In this document: piece after piece, positions 17,896-34,098 of the stretch
Position numbering within the stretch: position 1 is the stretch's first letter
Layout of the letters: every line of letters starts with the position of its first letter
Source of the DNA: Alphaproteobacteria bacterium
GTDB taxonomy: Bacteria; Pseudomonadota; Alphaproteobacteria; Puniceispirillales; Puniceispirillaceae
Length of the DNA: 37,576 nt
Reading direction: 5' to 3'
Assembly: GCA_011524735.1 (NCBI GenBank)
Contig: WTJS01000169.1
Span: 1-37,576 of the forward strand
Position numbers and translations under genes: made by a program
Notes under the pieces: generated by a model
The model's database searches: none
What the model was told of the DNA's origin: nothing
The model's input: only the letters and a program-made list of their open reading frames with translations

Positions 17896-18816
17896 GTGGT
17901 CGTGAATGTTGTAAGCCAGAAGCGGATGCTTGAAATTCTGAGCCGGTCAAACACCGGTGATCAGACTAGTCGCATTTGCGATCGGTTTCTCTCCACTTTG
18001 ATCCTTCTCAATCTGGTGGCTGTTTCACTAGAATCCATTGATGCGCTACGCCTGTCTCACGGCAGAGCTTTCATGTTATTCGAGGTGGTTTCAGTCACGA
18101 TTTTTGGATTGGAATATTGCCTTCGCATCTGGGCGGCAGCTGCGAATGAAGACAGCCGCTTCAAGACTGCCCTCGGTCGCCGAATGGAATATATTTTCAG
18201 CTTTACTGGCCTAATCGACCTACTTGCAATTCTACCAAGCCTGTTACCGCTCATTCTTGGGGAGGTTGATCTGAGATGGCTTCGCGTTCTGCGCCTTGTG
18301 CGATTACTGAAGATATCTCACTACTCTTCGGCATTGGAAGACCTCGTATCGGCGGTGCGTTCCGAGAAAGCTGCCTTCGGCGCTGCCCTTTACCTGTTCT
18401 GCATCGCTCTGTTCATCTCAAGCTCGCTTATGTACATCGTCGAACATCACGCACAGCCAGAACATTTTTCTTCCATCCCGACAACGATGTGGTGGTCACT
18501 TATTACACTGACAACGGTAGGCTATGGTGATGTGTCACCGATCACGCCAGTTGGCAAGCTGGTTGGCGCGCTGACCGCAATGATGGGCGTATGCGCTGTC
18601 GCGTTACTGACTGGCATTGTCGCCAGTGCCTTTTCTAACCAATTATCTAAGCGTCAGGATCTGTTTGAGGCTGAAATTGTCTCAGCACTTAGCGATGGCG
18701 TGATTTCTGAAGACGAAATGCGTCGGATCACCAAAATGCAAAAGCAGCTTGGCATGTCGGAAGAACATACGCGGGCGATAATAGAGCTGCTCCGTGACAG
18801 ACACGTTCCGAAATAA
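17896..18816 (+). CDS. Voltage-gated potassium channel (6-TM, Kv-like)
   Basis: A 306-residue inner-membrane ion channel. S1 (TLILLNLVAVSLES), S2/S3 (FEVVSVTIFGLEYCLRIWAA) and S4 precede the pore. S4 keeps regularly spaced arginines (LRWLRVLRLVRLLK), so it should sense voltage. The selectivity filter is TTVGYGD at about 206-212, followed by S6. A cytoplasmic helical tail of about 50 residues (SALSDGVISEDEMRRITKMQ) looks like a SHOCT-type short oligomerising domain. The start is GTG 17896 with TAGGGA upstream; ATG 17926 is an alternative. There is no fused nucleotide-binding domain, but two such single-domain proteins follow downstream on the same strand. Confidence 0.92.
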   Translation: MVVNVVSQKRMLEILSRSNTGDQTSRICDRFLSTLILLNLVAVSLESIDALRLSHGRAFMLFEVVSVTIFGLEYCLRIWAAAANEDSRFKTALGRRMEYIFSFTGLIDLLAILPSLLPLILGEVDLRWLRVLRLVRLLKISHYSSALEDLVSAVRSEKAAFGAALYLFCIALFISSSLMYIVEHHAQPEHFSSIPTTMWWSLITLTTVGYGDVSPITPVGKLVGALTAMMGVCAVALLTGIVASAFSNQLSKRQDLFEAEIVSALSDGVISEDEMRRITKMQKQLGMSEEHTRAIIELLRDRHVPK

Positions 18817-22695: not shown

Positions 22696-23457
22696 ATGGA
22701 TCTCGCATCCCTTATTGGTTTTATTGGTGCCGTCGGCATGATTGTCGGCGCGATGATTTCTGGTGGTGGCGTATCGCCATTCATTGATACCGCCTCCATT
22801 CTCATCGTGTTTGGTGGCACCTTTTTTGCGGTCATGTACACGACGCCGCTTGGCACTTTCCTTGGCAGTTTTGGCGTTATGGCAAAGGCCTTCCTCCCAC
22901 CGGTCAAGAAGCAGGACGCCATGATTGAGCGGATGGTTGAGCTTGCTGGCATCGCCCGCAAGGACGGCATGATGGCGCTTGAGGGCCAGGAAGTGCCAGA
23001 CAAGTTTTTTGAAAAGGGCCTGCAGATGCTTGTAGATGGCGCGGATGAAGCCAAGCTGACAGCACAGCTCAAGCAGGAAATCAAATCCATGAAGGCCCGT
23101 CATGAAGCTAACCAGGCCGTCATCAAGGCATGGGTCGATCTTGCCCCAGCGATGGGCATGATCGGCACACTTATTGGTCTTGTTCTAATGCTTGGCAATA
23201 TGGCCGACCCGAAAGCCATTGGCCCTGCCATGGCTGTTGCCCTTCTGACAACGCTGTATGGTGCCTTTATCGCTAATATTATGTTCGCGCCGATGCTGAC
23301 CAAGCTCGAAGGCTACACAGCCTACGAAACGGTCTATCGCGAAATGGTCGTTGAAGGGCTGCGCAACATCGCCCGCGGTGAATCACCACGTAATATCCAG
23401 GATCAGATGCTGTCCAACCTGCCGCCAAAAATGCAGGAGAAACTGGCGGCCGCCTAA
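22696..23457 (+). CDS. pomA: Flagellar motor stator subunit A, Na+-type (PomA/MotA)
   Basis: A 253-residue inner-membrane stator protein, the same length as Vibrio PomA. Four membrane helices are visible. Helices 3-4 carry the PomA-like stretch DLAPAMGMIGTLIGLVLMLG and DPKAIGPAMAVALLTTLYGA, and the cytoplasmic loop has IARKDGMMALEGQEVPDKFF. The opening MDLASLIGFIGAVGM also follows PomA rather than proton-type MotA. With PomB it would form the A5B2 ion channel that drives flagellar rotation. The sodium preference is inferred from sequence resemblance and the marine setting. It has its own sigma-54 promoter and is 48 bp upstream of pomB. Confidence 0.92.
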   Translation: MDLASLIGFIGAVGMIVGAMISGGGVSPFIDTASILIVFGGTFFAVMYTTPLGTFLGSFGVMAKAFLPPVKKQDAMIERMVELAGIARKDGMMALEGQEVPDKFFEKGLQMLVDGADEAKLTAQLKQEIKSMKARHEANQAVIKAWVDLAPAMGMIGTLIGLVLMLGNMADPKAIGPAMAVALLTTLYGAFIANIMFAPMLTKLEGYTAYETVYREMVVEGLRNIARGESPRNIQDQMLSNLPPKMQEKLAAA

Positions 23458-23505: not shown

Positions 23506-24663
23506 ATGAACGAAGCCGCCGAAGCAGAACTGGAAGAACAGGAAGAAGAAGAATGCCCGAAGTGCCCCCCCGTGGGTGCACCGGCATGGATGGCTACCTT
23601 TGCCGACATGGCAACACTGCTGATGGCCTTCTTCGTCCTCATTCTATCCTTTGCCGAATTTAACGTGCCAAAGTTCAAGCAGATATCTGGCTCGCTGAAA
23701 AACGCGTTTGGTGTCCAGAGAATTGTGCCCATCGTAGAACAGCCAAAGGGAACGACAGTACTTTCCCTCAACTTCAGCCCGTCACCGTCACCTTCTGTCA
23801 CTCAGGATATGACGCAGCAGACCACCGACGTTACCAAGCCCGATCTGGATGTGCAGCAGAAAGATAAGGATCAGGATGGCGGCCAGAGCGAAGCGGCTGA
23901 AGAGGTTGTAAAGGCCTTGGAAGACGCCATCGCTCGTGGCGACATCGAAGTCGAAGTACTTGGCGAAAATGTCGTGGTAAACTTCACCCCGACCGAAGCA
24001 AGTGCCGAAGAGCTTCCTAATCTCTTGCAGGAAACACTGAACGCAATCGAAGCTGCAAAGGCTGCAGCAGGAAAGTCTGATCAGGATATTCTGTTTGGCG
24101 GGCTGGAACAACAGCTTACGCAGCTGGCAGCAGCCGCCAGCGAAGCTCTTGAGTCATCTAACGCAGCTTCTGCTGAGGCTCAGGCTGAAGCTAAAGAGCA
24201 GCAACAGGCCAATGAGCGTGCTGAGATCGCTGAAGACGAGCTCAAAGTTGCCCTTCGTCAGGAAATTGGTCAGGGCCTTGTTGCCGTGGATCGTCAGGAA
24301 GACAAGGTTATCATCACCGTCGGTGCTGGTGGTGCCTTCCCTTCAGGTTCAGCTGAACTGACAGCCTCCGCCCGCACCATTATGGAAGAAATTGCCGGCG
24401 TGAATCAGGGCGGCAAAGGCGCAATTACCGTGTCCGGACACACCGACAATGTACCCCTGATCTTCGGGTCGCAGTTCCGCGATAACTGGGACCTTGCTGC
24501 GGCCCGCGCGTCGAGTGTGGTTCAGGCCCTTGAAGACACCGGCAAGGTTCCGGCAGGCCGTATGCAGGCTGTCAGCTTTGGTGAATCGCAGCCGGTAGAG
24601 ACAAACGAGACCGCTCGCGGTCGTGCCACGAACCGCAGGATTGAGATCGAAATCAACTACTGA
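23506..24663 (+). CDS. pomB: Flagellar motor stator subunit B, Na+-type (PomB/MotB) with OmpA domain
   Basis: A 385-residue stator protein. The N-terminus is acidic with Cys-Pro-Lys-Cys-Pro-Pro just before the single membrane helix (WMATFADMATLLMAFFVLIL). The ion-binding aspartate is about D34. The plug region then reads KFKQISGSLKNAFGVQ, as in PomB. A long acidic, Gln/Ala-rich coiled linker (about 95-265) precedes the C-terminal OmpA-like peptidoglycan-binding domain (ITVSGHTDNVPLIFGSQF, RDNWDLAAARASSVV, and GRATNRRIEIEI). It is longer than typical PomB (about 315) because of that linker. It follows pomA in one operon and converges with chrA. Confidence 0.94.
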   Translation: MNEAAEAELEEQEEEECPKCPPVGAPAWMATFADMATLLMAFFVLILSFAEFNVPKFKQISGSLKNAFGVQRIVPIVEQPKGTTVLSLNFSPSPSPSVTQDMTQQTTDVTKPDLDVQQKDKDQDGGQSEAAEEVVKALEDAIARGDIEVEVLGENVVVNFTPTEASAEELPNLLQETLNAIEAAKAAAGKSDQDILFGGLEQQLTQLAAAASEALESSNAASAEAQAEAKEQQQANERAEIAEDELKVALRQEIGQGLVAVDRQEDKVIITVGAGGAFPSGSAELTASARTIMEEIAGVNQGGKGAITVSGHTDNVPLIFGSQFRDNWDLAAARASSVVQALEDTGKVPAGRMQAVSFGESQPVETNETARGRATNRRIEIEINY

Positions 24664-24683: not shown

Positions 24684-24716
24684 GATCAGCTGCAGGCCGC
24701 TATACCGCCGCTGATC
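24684..24716. terminator. Hairpin between pomB and convergent chrA
   Basis: GATCAGC (24684-24690) pairs with GCTGATC (24710-24716), and an inner GGC/GCC pair strengthens the stem after a small bulge. It begins 21 bp after the pomB stop and overlaps the chrA stop codon, the place for a two-way terminator. It lacks a T-run on either strand. Confidence 0.45.
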
Positions 24717-26076
24717 AGATGAGCCCAAGGAAACCGAATACCAGCCCGGCTGTCGCACCGGTCGCCAACACGGTTATCATTCCCGTTCGGAGTATGAAGA
24801 TTGCGCCGAAGGCTGCAAGCGTGATGGCGCTTGCAGCCAAGTCAAAGCTTGTCAGAACGGGCAGATGAAGCTGAGTTGTGATAATCCCAAGAGGCAGTTC
24901 AACCTCAACAAGATCAGTGAACATCACCCGCAGTCCAAACCATATCGCCAAATTCAGAACCACACCCACAACAGCGGCTGTTATTCCCGTCAAGGCTCTT
25001 GCCAGCTTTTGATTTCCGCGAAGAGCCTCGATATAGGGCGCACCAAGAAAAATCCACAGAAAACACGGCGCAAATGTTACCCAGGTCGTGACGAGCGCCC
25101 CCAGCGTCCCAGCAATCATCGGGTCCAGCAGGCCCGGGCTTCGATAGGCGCCAATAAAGCCAACAAATTGTGTCACCATGATCAGCGGCCCAGGCGTTGT
25201 CTCAGCCATGCCAAGCCCGTCGAGCATTTCACCGGCGCTCAGCCAACCATAATGCCCGACAGTCTGTTGCGCCATGTAAGACAATACGGCGTAAGCACCT
25301 CCAAAAGTGACAACCGCGACTTGGCTGAAAAACAAACCCTGCTGCACGAAGATATGACCAGTCCCAAGCCATCCATACAACAGACAGACCGGCAGCAGCC
25401 AGATTGTACCGCAGACAAGAATAACCCGTGTTGCCCGCCATCGTGACGGCCGCTGTTGATGCTCTGCCAGCCTGTCGACCGCCCTCTCGTTCTGGGTATG
25501 GCTACCGCTGTCTTCTTCGCTATGTCTGTCATCACCCGGAATGAAGAGGCCTGCGAGGGCAGCGCCGACGATCACCAGCGGAAAAGGAACGGAAAACACA
25601 AAACTGGCAATGAAAGCCACACAGGTAATTGTAATCAGAAGACGCTGCTTCAGGATCTTCTGCGCAAGCCGCCATACCGCCGCTGCCACCACGACCAAAA
25701 CGGCTGCTTTCACACCAAAAAACACTGACGACACGGCAACAGCTTGCTGATAGGTGACATAAATCATGCTGAGCGCGAGCACCGTGATCGCCCCCGGAAG
25801 CACAAACAGCACCCCTGCAACCACGCCACCCCGCACCCGGTGCAAAATCCAGCCAAGATAGATTGTCAACTGCTGCGCTTCAGGCCCAGGAAGCAACATG
25901 CAGAAATTCAGGGCATGAAGAAAACGTCTCTCACTAACCCATTTCAATTCTTCGACAAGAAGACGGTGCATCACTGCAATCTGTCCAGCAGGGCCACCAA
26001 AGCTCAGCAGACTGATTTTAAACCATACCCGAACTGCCTTTGCGAAGCTGACAACTGTAACCTTCCGATCCTGCAC
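24715..26076 (-). CDS. chrA: Chromate transporter, ChrA (CHR) family, two-domain
   Basis: A 453-residue inner-membrane protein with two homologous CHR domains joined by a hydrophilic His/Glu-rich linker (about 190-225). Domain 1 has SFGGPAGQIAVMH and NFCMLLPGPEAQQLTIYLG. Domain 2 has VVTFGGAYAVLSYMAQQ and GLGMAETTPGPLIMVTQFVG. These are the duplicated family signatures. ChrA exports chromate driven by the proton gradient; many environmental homologues may handle sulfate or other oxyanions. The start is GTG 26076, with GGAGGG at proper spacing. It lies 124 bp downstream of the PDZ-like gene on the same strand. No chrB is seen, so regulation is unknown. Confidence 0.93.
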   Translation of the reverse strand: MQDRKVTVVSFAKAVRVWFKISLLSFGGPAGQIAVMHRLLVEELKWVSERRFLHALNFCMLLPGPEAQQLTIYLGWILHRVRGGVVAGVLFVLPGAITVLALSMIYVTYQQAVAVSSVFFGVKAAVLVVVAAAVWRLAQKILKQRLLITITCVAFIASFVFSVPFPLVIVGAALAGLFIPGDDRHSEEDSGSHTQNERAVDRLAEHQQRPSRWRATRVILVCGTIWLLPVCLLYGWLGTGHIFVQQGLFFSQVAVVTFGGAYAVLSYMAQQTVGHYGWLSAGEMLDGLGMAETTPGPLIMVTQFVGFIGAYRSPGLLDPMIAGTLGALVTTWVTFAPCFLWIFLGAPYIEALRGNQKLARALTGITAAVVGVVLNLAIWFGLRVMFTDLVEVELPLGIITTQLHLPVLTSFDLAASAITLAAFGAIFILRTGMITVLATGATAGLVFGFLGLI

Positions 26077-26200: not shown

Positions 26201-27091
26201 CTATGTTCTGCGGCGGCGCTTCTTTGGCGGCTCGTCCGTAACAGGTGGACCGACAAGATCGGGTGTGAAAACCGACTTGGCATCAATACGACGGCAGAGC
26301 CGCTGCACTTCTAGCTCAGACTTTGCAGCGACAACCATCCAAATGTGACGTCCCCGCATCATGGCAAAACTGCGACGCAGAACCAGATGGGCCTTACGCA
26401 AATAGAGGCTGAAAAGGATGTAAGCGATTACAAACAGCACCCAGTGTACGGCAAGCGTAGCACCATAAATAAGGAACGTGGCAAGCAACACTTCCCACAG
26501 ACGGTTCTGCATAAGCCAGAGCGGTGGAAAGATCGTTGCCAAAGGCGAAAGGCGGGTGTCTAGGACAATGCAGTTACGGAAGATATCCCGCAAAATTTCG
26601 AAAATAATCAGAGTTTCCTTTGGATCAACAACGAAGCTCGCAAACTCCTTCGCAGCCTGCTCACTGGCTTCTGGTTTGCCGTGCTCAATGACACATCCCA
26701 ACGGGCCGCGAGCCATGACATTGAAGAGGTGGCCAGCGCGCCAGATGGTCAGCACAACGCCGTTCTCCGGATCGCATTCGAACATGATATCCAGAAACGT
26801 GTCGATATCCTTGTGGAACGGCGTGCCATCGATGGCAACGATCATATCTTCAGCCTGCAAGCGGAGAGACCGCGCGCGTGAGATTGACCGAACATCTTTG
26901 ATAACGAGGAATGTTGTTGCCTGAATTGGGTTTTCGTCTTTGCCCTCTGATACGGATGCAGGCTCCATTGTCTGGCTTCCTGTGGTTTTCCGATCCGACG
27001 AATAGGGCACAGCGGCATCTATATCATCTGCGATCGCCGCAGCAGCAAGAGCGGCTTCTAGATGATCCTGATTTGTTTCCTGCTGTGCCAT
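26201..27091 (-). CDS. PDZ-like domain membrane protein of unknown function
   Basis: A 296-residue protein. After an Ala/Glu-rich start, residues about 60-128 look like a PDZ domain (SRARSLRLQAEDMIVAIDG with TPFHKDIDTFLDIMF, then VVLTIWRAGHLFNV). A helical part follows, then one or two membrane helices at about 198-232 (LWEVLLATFLIYGATLAVHW). A basic cytoplasmic tail (PPKKRRRRT) closes it. No signal peptide or protease domain is seen. It lies 63 bp after the coiled-coil membrane protein gene, at the end of the flagellar block, and faces pomA-pomB beyond chrA. A motility or polar-localisation role is inferred from position only. Confidence 0.7.
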   Translation of the reverse strand: MAQQETNQDHLEAALAAAAIADDIDAAVPYSSDRKTTGSQTMEPASVSEGKDENPIQATTFLVIKDVRSISRARSLRLQAEDMIVAIDGTPFHKDIDTFLDIMFECDPENGVVLTIWRAGHLFNVMARGPLGCVIEHGKPEASEQAAKEFASFVVDPKETLIIFEILRDIFRNCIVLDTRLSPLATIFPPLWLMQNRLWEVLLATFLIYGATLAVHWVLFVIAYILFSLYLRKAHLVLRRSFAMMRGRHIWMVVAAKSELEVQRLCRRIDAKSVFTPDLVGPPVTDEPPKKRRRRT

Positions 27092-27154
27092 AGTAAGCCC
27101 TTCACATCGGCAAGTATGGACAAGGCAATGGCCCCCTTAGGGGTTATGCCTGGG

Positions 27155-27892
27155 TTACGGATAGCTGACGCGATTGTCCTTTTCCTTGAACATGCGTGAC
27201 AGATCGGTGTTCTGGGACGAAAGCTCACCAAGCATACGCACGATGGTCTTCTGATTGGCAACCAGCCTGTCAATATTCTTGGTATCGGAAACTGACTTTG
27301 TCATTTTTGCCAGCGCTTCCGCGTTTGCCTGCGACATAGCGTTCAGTTCTTTCACCATGCGGTTTGTCTGTGCACCAAGCTCATTGGCAATCCCGCCAGT
27401 GATGGAAGACGCCATGTCGGCATTGCTTTGGCTGATTGTTGTCGAGCTTGCTTCGATACCGACCATCATGCTCTCGTTCGAGCGCGAAATGATATCGCGC
27501 AGGCCAATCAGCTCATTGATCAACGTCTCATTCTGACCGACTAGGGTTTGCTGTGTGTCCAGCGCTGATTTCATCTTGGACAAAGAGTCATTTACACCAT
27601 CAACGTTCTCAGCAAACAGAACCAGTGCCTCACGGCTTGTCGTGGTCATGGTATTGAGTTCAGACATGGTCTTGAAATAGATCATGCTCGCGAACAGAAG
27701 AGCTGCGACGGCGGCCACCATCGAGCTGGCGAAAATGATAATGGAATAACGATGTACGCTCTTCACTGATGCCTCCAGCTTTTTGTGTTCGCGCTTCGTC
27801 TTGTTGTATTCAGACGTCACATCGGTTGCTGCATCGGCGGCATCAAGCGCGATCTTGATGCTTTCCTGCACCGCATTATATTCGGTGGTCAT
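27155..27892 (-). CDS. Single-pass membrane protein with long coiled coil, flagellar-operon-linked
   Basis: A 245-residue protein with a cytoplasmic N-terminal helix, one membrane helix at about 50-72 (IIIFASSMVAAVAALLFASM) and a long helical, coiled-coil C-terminal part rich in Ser/Asn/Gln (TQQTLVGQNETLINELIGLR and related stretches). The Asn/Ser/Met-rich helices resemble the cytoplasmic hairpin of chemoreceptors in composition, but the highly conserved receptor tip is absent. Its ATG overlaps the previous stop by ATGA (27889-27892), tying it to the flagellar operon. A periplasmic or cytoplasmic spacer or stator-associated role is possible. No family is recognised. Confidence 0.75.
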   Translation of the reverse strand: MTTEYNAVQESIKIALDAADAATDVTSEYNKTKREHKKLEASVKSVHRYSIIIFASSMVAAVAALLFASMIYFKTMSELNTMTTTSREALVLFAENVDGVNDSLSKMKSALDTQQTLVGQNETLINELIGLRDIISRSNESMMVGIEASSTTISQSNADMASSITGGIANELGAQTNRMVKELNAMSQANAEALAKMTKSVSDTKNIDRLVANQKTIVRMLGELSSQNTDLSRMFKEKDNRVSYP

Positions 27893-28119
27893 GCCAGTCT
27901 CCCGTTAGATCCTCTTGGCCTACCGCGCTTTTCCCGCGGCTGGCTCGGTTGGTAGTAAGCACAATTCATGCCAGTTTCCTGAAAAACAGTTCGCGAAGGC
28001 AGGACAGGCCCCTTAAACCCGAACCTGCGGCATCCGTATGGGCGCGACGGCTCATGTGTAATGAAGTGATGGCGACAGACAAAACAATTCGGCCCCCTTT
28101 TTTCTCGCGGCCTGTTCAT
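27889..28119 (-). CDS. Four-cysteine small protein (putative metal-binding)
   Basis: A 76-residue basic protein. I start at ATG 28119, which has GGAG eight bases upstream and overlaps the preceding stop by ATGA; GTG 28134 is possible but lacks a ribosome binding site. Four cysteines (C12-x2-C15, C30, C53) lie in a pattern CFVCRHHFITHEP, YGCRRFGFKG and MNCAYYQP. This matches a family of small proteins often found in flagellated or deltaproteobacterial genomes and sometimes mislabelled as uracil-DNA glycosylase. Zinc binding is likely. The C-terminal tail is basic (EKRGRPRGSNGR, AT-hook-like RGRPRG). It is translationally coupled on both sides. Confidence 0.75.
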   Translation of the reverse strand: MNRPREKRGPNCFVCRHHFITHEPSRPYGCRRFGFKGPVLPSRTVFQETGMNCAYYQPSQPREKRGRPRGSNGRLA

Positions 28120-28340
28120 TTTTGTCTCCGCCACAATCTGGTCACAACATCAGCAATGAGAAAGCGTGCACCTGCCATGACACAGGCAATCCCGGCGCCC
28201 CACAGCCCAAGGGCTTTGATCATGTCGGCGCCCTCATCCTGCACAAGATTACCTTCCAGCAGGAAATAGATGCCTACGGCGTAAAAGCACACCGAGCTAA
28301 TCATCTCTCCCAGAGACCGTTGTCTGTGTTTACGCGCCAT
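28116..28340 (-). CDS. Small two-helix membrane protein downstream of flhB
   Basis: A 74-residue protein with a basic start (MARKHRQRSLGEM) and two hydrophobic helices (ISSVCFYAVGIYFLLEG and ALGLWGAGIACVMAGARF), ending in a basic tail (RLWRRQK). ATG 28340 has GGGAG seven bases upstream; TTG 28346 is two codons further. Its start lies 11 bp inside flhB, and its end overlaps the next gene by 4 bp. It is therefore an integral part of the flagellar transcript. No family is recognised. Confidence 0.72.
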   Translation of the reverse strand: MARKHRQRSLGEMISSVCFYAVGIYFLLEGNLVQDEGADMIKALGLWGAGIACVMAGARFLIADVVTRLWRRQK

Positions 28341-29511
28341 CGCCAACTCCCTCAGAGGACGCTACATCCTGAAGATTACCATGTTCGTCAAACCGTAATT
28401 CTGGTGGCAGCGTGAGGTCCGGCATGTCCATGGGCTCACCGGCATCTACACGAAAGACATAGGCAAGTATCACCGCGACTGCATTATACAACCCTTCAGT
28501 GATCTCGCCCCCAATCTCACTGGTGAAATACAAGGCACGTGCCAGCATCGGTATTCGCAAGGTGCGCACCCTTGCTTTGGAAGCACGCTCAATGATCTGC
28601 TGAGCCATCACACCGCGCCCCATGGCAAGAACAGTTGGTGCGCCAGCCTGTCCGCTCGTATATTTCAACGCCACGGCAAAATGTGTGGGGTTGGTTATGA
28701 CCGCAGTTGCGTCTCCAACATTCTCGAGTGCTTCCCGCTGCCGTGACGATTCCTGAGACTGCTGAAACTGCATACGACGGATTTTTGCCTTAACCTCTGG
28801 CGACCCTTCGGTCTGCTTGCTTTCATCCTTCACTTCTTTGAGCGTCATTCGCAGGGACTGAATATGTGTATGGCGTTGCCAGCTGTAGTCGATGACAGCA
28901 ATCACAAGCAACGCAATGAGGAGTCCCCCGACAAGGAACGGAAAGGACATCATCGACCGGCTCACCGCCTGCCCAAGTGAGCTTGCAGACAACTGGATCA
29001 TCGTTGGCAACTGGCTGTAAATGACCAACCCACCAATGCCAAACAGCAAAACAACCTTCAGAATAGATTTGCCGAGCTCTACGAGTCCCTTCACAGAGAA
29101 AATACGCTTCAATCCAGAAATTGGATCGATCCGATTCCCTTTGAAATTGAGCGCCTGACTCGAAAAATTCAAACCACCAACGGCGGCCTGCGTTAACAGT
29201 GTGACAACCATCATGGGGATGCCAATAGCAAGAGAGATCGCAATCACAAGCCAGAACGCGTACCGCACCTTGGCAAGTCCAAGCGTATCAAGATTGAAAT
29301 TGGAATCGATGACAAATAATCGCCCCCAGCTGCTTAAGCCAAGTTCAACAAACGGCATAAGGCCATAGAACAGCACCAACCCCATGGCCAGCGTGGTAAA
29401 CACCATCATTTCCTTCGAAGTCAGGACCCGGCCTTCCTCAGCAGCCTTATCAAGTTTTCGCTGGGTGGGTTCCTCGGTCTTTTCCTGACCGTCCTGGTTT
29501 TCCTCAGCCAT
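28330..29511 (-). CDS. flhB: Flagellar type III export switch protein FlhB
   Basis: A 393-residue export-gate protein. The N-terminal part begins with the family's GQEKTEEPTQRKLDKAAEEG and contains four membrane helices. The cytoplasmic C-terminal half has the autocleavage site NPTH (about N274-H277, VITNPTHFAVAL), which switches export from rod/hook to filament substrates after FliK measures hook length. A short acidic extension ends the protein. It overlaps fliR by 8 bp upstream and an unknown small gene by 11 bp downstream. Confidence 0.97.
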   Translation of the reverse strand: MAEENQDGQEKTEEPTQRKLDKAAEEGRVLTSKEMMVFTTLAMGLVLFYGLMPFVELGLSSWGRLFVIDSNFNLDTLGLAKVRYAFWLVIAISLAIGIPMMVVTLLTQAAVGGLNFSSQALNFKGNRIDPISGLKRIFSVKGLVELGKSILKVVLLFGIGGLVIYSQLPTMIQLSASSLGQAVSRSMMSFPFLVGGLLIALLVIAVIDYSWQRHTHIQSLRMTLKEVKDESKQTEGSPEVKAKIRRMQFQQSQESSRQREALENVGDATAVITNPTHFAVALKYTSGQAGAPTVLAMGRGVMAQQIIERASKARVRTLRIPMLARALYFTSEIGGEITEGLYNAVAVILAYVFRVDAGEPMDMPDLTLPPELRFDEHGNLQDVASSEGVGDGA

Positions 29512-33519: not shown

Positions 33520-34098
33520 TTACTGCAAGACAAAGGATGTGAAATGAACTTCCTCGATGCCACCAAAATTCTCCAGTGCCTCGAGCTTGGTATTGATAAC
33601 GTCTCGGAGCGCATTTGCCAGCCGCAAGCGCCCTTCAGCACCCTTCACATCATCTTCTGAGAAGTCGCTGATTGCGCCAAGGATGACCGAGCGAAGGGCC
33701 AACTGGTGTGACTCCACATTCATCATGACGGTATCGTCATATTGTGTCGATAGCCCAACGCCAACCTGCAGCATCTTGCGAGACCCATTCAGATTGGTCG
33801 TAAAGGTGCCAGGAAACTCGTGGTAGATGGTCTCGAACACTTCATCAGCCGGCGTGTCTTTGGTCTGTTTCGCCATGGCAGTGGCATTGTCAGCCTCTGC
33901 TTCCGCAGCCTCACGTTCCTGCATCTTACGTTCAATAATCTCTTCGATTTGTTCAGACGGATCCGGCTGGGACGAACCAAAGATGAAGTAACCAGCACCA
34001 AGTCCGATCACAATCATCAGCAGCCCACCGCCTCCAAAAATCAGCAGCTTCTTGATCAGGCCGCCACCTGCATTCTGTTCTGCATCATTTTCAGCCAT
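33520..34098 (-). CDS. fliL: Flagellar basal-body-associated protein FliL
   Basis: A 192-residue inner-membrane protein with one helix (LLIFGGGGLLMIVIGLGAGY), an acidic helical linker (EIIERKMQEREAAEAEADNA) and the stomatin-like periplasmic domain (FETIYHEFPGTFTTNLNG, MLQVGVGLSTQYDDTVM, LRLANALRDVINTKLE). FliL rings surround the stator plug and raise torque, so it would work with PomA/PomB in this window. It is 116 bp after fliK and precedes fliM. Confidence 0.95.
   Translation of the reverse strand: MAENDAEQNAGGGLIKKLLIFGGGGLLMIVIGLGAGYFIFGSSQPDPSEQIEEIIERKMQEREAAEAEADNATAMAKQTKDTPADEVFETIYHEFPGTFTTNLNGSRKMLQVGVGLSTQYDDTVMMNVESHQLALRSVILGAISDFSEDDVKGAEGRLRLANALRDVINTKLEALENFGGIEEVHFTSFVLQ

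Follow-up and report, generated by a model that had tools for sequence, protein, structure and literature searches.

What is the function of the four genes that follow flhB in the flagellar operon of a SAR116-type ocean bacterium? The window, a stretch of 37,576 nucleotides from an Alphaproteobacteria bacterium of the Puniceispirillaceae, carries an operon in the order fliI, a gene for 142 amino acids in the fliJ position, fliK, fliL, fliM, fliN, fliO, fliP, fliQ, fliR, and flhB, in which fliP to fliR were named by position and by comparison with relatives. The four genes, here called P1 to P4, lie behind flhB, and the features noted in the window are as follows.

17896–18816, plus strand: ion-channel gene (Pfam Ion_trans, E 7e-33)
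22696–23457, plus strand: motA (PomA-like) stator gene, convergent to the module and close to P4 in most relatives (Pfam MotA_ExbB, 1.9e-28)
23506–24663, plus strand: motB stator gene, convergent to the module (Pfam MotB_plug, 1.8e-17)
24715–26076: chromate-transporter gene between P4 and motB
26201–27091, minus strand: P4, 296 aa, predicted PDZ domain and membrane hairpin, after a 63-bp gap behind P3
27155–27892, minus strand: P3, 245 aa, coiled coil, MotF ortholog by sequence, ATGA (4 bp) overlap with P2
27889–28119, minus strand: P2, 76 aa, C-x2-C...C...C, ATGA (4 bp) overlap with P1
28116–28340, minus strand: P1, 74 aa, two predicted membrane helices, 11-bp overlap with flhB
28330–29511, minus strand: flhB, export-gate gene and head of the module (Pfam Bac_export_2, E 5.9e-101)
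33520–34098, minus strand: fliL, in the same operon as P1–P4 (Pfam FliL, E 9.6e-17)

The coordinates, lengths, overlaps (11, 4, and 4 bp), and 63-bp gap given in a preliminary description of this locus are all correct, base for base. A terminator scan gave seven sites, against 3.5 expected, all of them inside flhB and none between flhB and P4. None of P1–P4 has a match above cut-off in Pfam, NCBIfam, or PHROGs, so that annotations either leave them 'hypothetical' or overlook them altogether. The chromate-transporter gene is a genus-level insertion, seen among the relatives examined only in the window's own genus; in the others, P4 directly faces motB.

The order fliP-fliQ-fliR-flhB-P1-P2-P3-P4 is kept in all fetched order-level relatives with an intact region, and motB-motA is convergent behind P4 in many order-level relatives. 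Of 61 order-level genomes, 41 have P3, and precisely these have flhB; P4 is found in those 41 and in one more (G020), where its 4.6-kb contig ends inside the flagellar cluster and flhB was not found. A scan of named species gave 80 loci, mostly from SAR116 and other marine alphaproteobacteria, with flhB in 78, P1 in 78, P2 in 79, and P4 in 79; the gaps that were checked lie at contig ends. Conservation of P1–P4 reaches down to about 20–25% identity, and the commonest P1–P2 and P2–P3 spacing is a 4-bp overlap. Since the four genes and their order are conserved both in the intact relatives and in the named loci, the module is more than a chance arrangement, and the earlier suggestion of a four-gene membrane module, linked to flhB and lying outside the standard flagellar sets, holds.

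The module is not general across the alphaproteobacteria, but is tied to one flagellar cluster type. In a class sample of 289 genomes, of which 189 have flhB, P2, P3, and P4 each gave strong matches in nine genomes, from four families. All nine genomes with a strong P3 match have flhB, while none of the 100 genomes lacking flhB has one; the only strong match to P2, P3, or P4 in a class genome lacking flhB is the contig-end case of G020. Homologues away from flhB, or in nonflagellated genomes, would have spoken against the module, and as far as tested P1, P3, and P4 stay with flhB, whereas P2 belongs to a wider family found mostly away from flagellar genes. Matches to P3 at E about 1e-4 (G252, G301, G340) are mostly to long frames with partial profile coverage, and were discounted as generic coiled-coil matches; most weak P4 matches in class genomes (E 1e-8 to 1e-3) were likewise mostly to long frames with partial coverage, and were set aside as generic PDZ.

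Trees of FlhB and of P3 with P4, made by a quick method that leaves several branches open, show the same main clades, consistent with a module that may have travelled with the flagellar cluster. G148 has, at L235, a strongly diverged module copy, where flhB has an unusually low score and no P1 was recognised; the two other sampled genomes of this family have flhB but not the module, and transfer of the whole cluster is possible. Three contigs in Gammaproteobacteria or Pelagibacterales bins (L156, L166, L225) carry a SAR116-type module and are probably misbinned or mislabelled.

The identity of P3 comes from a comparison with genome G645, which we take, from its replicon sizes and its MotF features, to be R. 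sphaeroides 2.4.1, with seven replicons of 3,188,524, 943,018, 114,179, 114,045, 105,284, 100,827, and 37,100 bases. In this genome, a P3 homologue overlaps the end of flhB, with P1 and P2 absent between them, and a P4 homologue comes next. The P3 homologue was found at E 1.1e-8 with a SAR116-only profile, and at 5e-39 with a family profile built without the G645 protein, while the best of 4,000 shuffles reached 0.24 or worse. The latter profile, which is Rhodobacteraceae-based, scores P3 of the window at 205 bits. For the P4 homologue, E is 1.4e-12, and the best shuffle reached 0.08. The R. sphaeroides protein behind flhB, encoded at L348:5555–6274, has no match above cut-off in Pfam or NCBIfam; from its own ATG, it has 239 aa, a mass of 24.77 kDa, and a membrane helix at 54–72/74. 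We presume that motF is RSP_0067, and we link it to the G645 gene by the matching size, helix position, and gene order. Judged by sequence, P3 is the MotF ortholog. MotF of R. sphaeroides (Ramirez-Cabrera 2012, as cited in PMC7277832) is a protein of 24 kDa with a helix at 54–74 and a periplasmic C-terminus (PMC7277832), and in this species RSP_0066 is flhB and RSP_0067 is a co-regulated unnamed gene (PMC9779115). Thus, the description of the four genes as uncharacterised is right for P1, P2, and P4, but not for P3, the apparent ortholog of a rotation protein that has been studied genetically.

In R. sphaeroides, rotation ceases when MotF is lost, and the deletion is suppressed by mutations in the MotB plug; the location of GFP-MotF depends on MotA/B, FliL, and FlgT, and FliL and MotF act on the same region of MotB (PMC7277832). 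Because rotation stops without MotF, MotB plug changes suppress its loss, and its location needs MotA/B, FliL, and FlgT, the most likely role of P3, and the best supported one by orthology, is stator activation. Stator recruitment was one of several earlier guesses, and it fits the orthology of P3 to a rotation protein. It has also been suggested that the module is an export-gate accessory, and P1–P4 might indeed act together with FlhB in secretion or substrate switching, the effect of MotF on rotation then being indirect. The tight overlap with flhB would fit this, and so would the fact that the module is strictly linked to flhB and not to motAB; the latter is convergent to the module and is absent beside it in R. 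sphaeroides. However, point mutations in the MotB plug rescue motF mutants of R. sphaeroides (PMC7277832), a result that fits stator activation and not export, and the conserved tip of P3 is predicted to be periplasmic. We consider the export-gate role unlikely, and the present data lend it no support.

P3 of the window has a hydrophobic helix at 48–77 (core about 50–70), with basic residues before it and one long helix after it in the predicted topology, and this one hydrophobic segment, at about 48–77, agrees with the single-pass protein first described. The structure prediction also gives one long helix, at a pTM of 0.27, too low to define shape or assembly. P3 varies little in length, most of the proteins having 237, 245, 247, or 249 aa. 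In 101 of 101 proteins, the penultimate residue is F or Y and the final one is P, while the sequence that precedes them is highly variable; the window protein ends in VSYP. So constant an end suggests that a conserved receptor recognises it, and gives MotF a precise, testable feature. P3 resembles R. sphaeroides MotF in homology, in the position behind flhB, in the helix near 54–74, in the large periplasmic C-terminal part, in the [FY]P end, and in the same type of cluster with FliL, FlgT, and FlgP. The R. sphaeroides protein differs in having a Pro/Ala/Lys-rich stretch, rather than a continuous coiled coil, at the end of its periplasmic part, and its locus differs in that P1 and P2 are missing.

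The name MotF has also been given to a protein of Sinorhizobium meliloti and Agrobacterium fabrum, which is a FliL paralog according to the title of Sobe et al. 2022, cited in PMC9812332. That protein is likewise needed for motility and has stator-linked suppressors (in motA), but P3 has no match to the FliL domain, PF03748, at E ≤ 1, and the operon of the window has its own fliL. On present evidence, this is a name clash and the two proteins are not relatives.

In which type of flagellum is the module found? The P3 gene of the window lies within a fla3-type cluster together with FliL and FlgT. FliL, FlgT, FlgP, RpoN, FleQ, and FliA, the accessory set of R. sphaeroides Fla1 (PMC7277832), are all present in two complete SAR116-group genomes. 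The flagellar plasmid pOA238_118 of Octadecabacter arcticus has a cluster of the same layout, with all of P1–P4 behind flhB (E 2e-20, 2e-22, 2e-23, and 2e-36 for P1 to P4). Its P1 and P2 genes (L255:18687–19114) are intact yet unannotated, so annotation-based surveys miss the module. A plasmid search with P3 alone gave no match; the same search with P4 found Octadecabacter. Among 326 Rhodobacteraceae genomes, reached by 16S gene matching, 20 have P3. At loci whose fetched stretch includes a recognisable flhB, P3 is directly downstream of flhB or of P1/P2; at two loci flhB was not recognised on that stretch. P4 comes next after P3 at these loci, except in G860, which has P3 without P4. In some Rhodobacteraceae, there are 600–800 bp between P1 and P3 with no P2 and no obvious replacement. 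The fla3-type cluster of the Rhodobacterales, for which the reference is C. sphaeroides, spread by horizontal transfer (PMC12363192), and the scattered minority of Rhodobacteraceae with P3 fits this cluster type. P1–P4 are a conserved addition to a single flagellum type, the fla3 type (Fla1 in R. sphaeroides).

Four other uncharacterised motility genes inside a flagellar cluster, CP1–CP4 of Phaeobacter inhibens, are reported only in fla1-type clusters and are absent from fla2 and fla3 (PMC12363192). P1–P4 should differ from them because they belong to a fla3-type cluster; the two sets are told apart here by cluster type, not by sequence. MotF was previously described as restricted to some Rhodobacteraceae (PMC7277832), a view that changes with its presence across SAR116 and other marine alphaproteobacteria. 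As far as the literature was searched, MotF far beyond the Rhodobacteraceae, P4 as its PDZ neighbour, and the invariant [F/Y]-P end appear to be new.

P4 is a near-constant neighbour of MotF, with the exception of G860. The preliminary description called it PDZ-like; the sequence profile stays under the Pfam cut-off (PDZ_2, 19 bits against 27, E 0.0018), but AlphaFold2 gives a PDZ fold, with a pLDDT of about 97 over residues 61–280. The predicted layout is a PDZ domain (about 58–139), further strands, amphipathic helices, a membrane hairpin (199–245), and a short C-terminal strand-helix; the tail after the hairpin is basic. The closest PDB folds, for residues about 57–146, are the PDZ domains of GRASP and PDZ2 of RseP, with Z 10–11 and rmsd 1.7–2.9 over 77–87 aligned residues, and these matches are firm only for residues 57–144. 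The likeness to RseP PDZ2 and to the GRASP55/65 PDZ domains is one of predicted fold, without evidence of common function, and P4 lacks both the protease domain of RseP and the tandem PDZ of GRASP. We place the PDZ domain in the cytoplasm because the sequence shows neither a signal peptide nor an N-terminal membrane helix and the hairpin is followed by a basic segment. P4 is probably an inner-membrane partner of MotF. The motor of Campylobacter jejuni also recruits a PDZ-containing protein, PflC, but this is a periplasmic HtrA-like disk protein (PMC12222027), whereas P4 is a predicted membrane-hairpin protein with its PDZ domain probably in the cytoplasm.

A cytoplasmic PDZ adaptor could also tether the motor to polar factors, so that the module would set the position or number of flagella at the pole, as had been proposed, and only the PDZ domain and the coiled coil point in that direction. 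However, the dependence of GFP-MotF location on MotA/B and FliL (PMC7277832) is like that of a late-recruited motor component, and FlhF is encoded separately in the two complete SAR116-group genomes. Polar placement gains no support from the present data, and we regard it as very improbable.

We think it quite likely that P1–P4 form an accessory module of the fla3-type flagellum, in which P3, as MotF, helps stator activation, P4 is a probable partner, and P1 and P2 are auxiliary. The four proteins would be translated together with the export-gate gene flhB. The conserved N-terminal helix of P3/MotF would be cytoplasmic, one helix would pass through the inner membrane, and a long helix would extend into the periplasm and end in the [FY]P tip. 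The rotation role of MotF is published for R. sphaeroides; if P3 acts likewise in SAR116, it probably assists FliL and the FlgT ring in moving the plug of MotB, its proposed target. Once the plug is moved, docked MotA/MotB stators would open and the motor would turn. The cytoplasmic PDZ domain of P4, on its membrane hairpin, may grip a cytoplasmic peptide of the stator, the rotor, or MotF. The unplugging of docked stators is poorly understood, and the module offers three unstudied neighbours of MotF, above all P4, for its study.

A more specific proposal, which we put forward only tentatively and regard as rather doubtful, is that P1–P4 form one physical complex, a PDZ-based stator-gating unit of the inner membrane. 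The long periplasmic helix of MotF would then present its [FY]P end to a fixed receptor, which might be FlgT, the P-ring, or the part of MotB that faces the peptidoglycan. On the cytoplasmic side, the PDZ domain of P4 would read a C-terminus, for example that of MotA, which usually ends in -AA, with P1 and P2 tuning the complex. If true, this would be a third way to license stators, besides FliL alone and MotX/MotY.

P1 has orthologs at all intact order-level loci and is recognisable in most lineages, and it is not found at the R. sphaeroides locus. P2 has four Cys that are invariant in the alignments, within a conserved GFK/P/G context, and probably binds metal; a search of PDB sequences with P2 gave no match. 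By comparison of the loci, P1 and P2 complete a four-gene set, of which the R. sphaeroides lineage has lost part and keeps two genes. Because that lineage lost both P1 and P2, these are best seen as auxiliary, perhaps in assembly, stability, or coupling. The Fla1 motor of R. sphaeroides turns in their absence, so MotF action does not require them in all cases. It is plausible, though we lean against it, that only P3, possibly with P4, acts on the stator, and that P1 and P2 either help assembly in a metal- or redox-linked way or are hitch-hikers in the operon. This would account for the absence of P1 and P2 at the R. sphaeroides locus, and for the loss of P2 from nine Rhodobacteraceae genomes, R. 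sphaeroides and eight others with P3, in which no match was found genome-wide; P2-type proteins elsewhere in the Pseudomonadota are also mostly encoded away from flagellar genes. However, essentially all other lineages with P3 have P1 and P2 between flhB and P3, which argues for shared selection.

P2-like small proteins were found in 59 of 279 genomes of the phylum. The members of this family that were tested have no Pfam or NCBIfam match. In other Pseudomonadota, these proteins (L257–L285, L290–L309) are common, have 60–90 aa, and carry C-x2-C...C...C with a TW[DE]xxxPxGC-like motif. Among the 20 P2-like loci inspected, only that of G516 (L308) is clearly inside a flagellar cluster, with a flagellin gene on one side of the P2-like gene and a FleQ-like regulator on the other.
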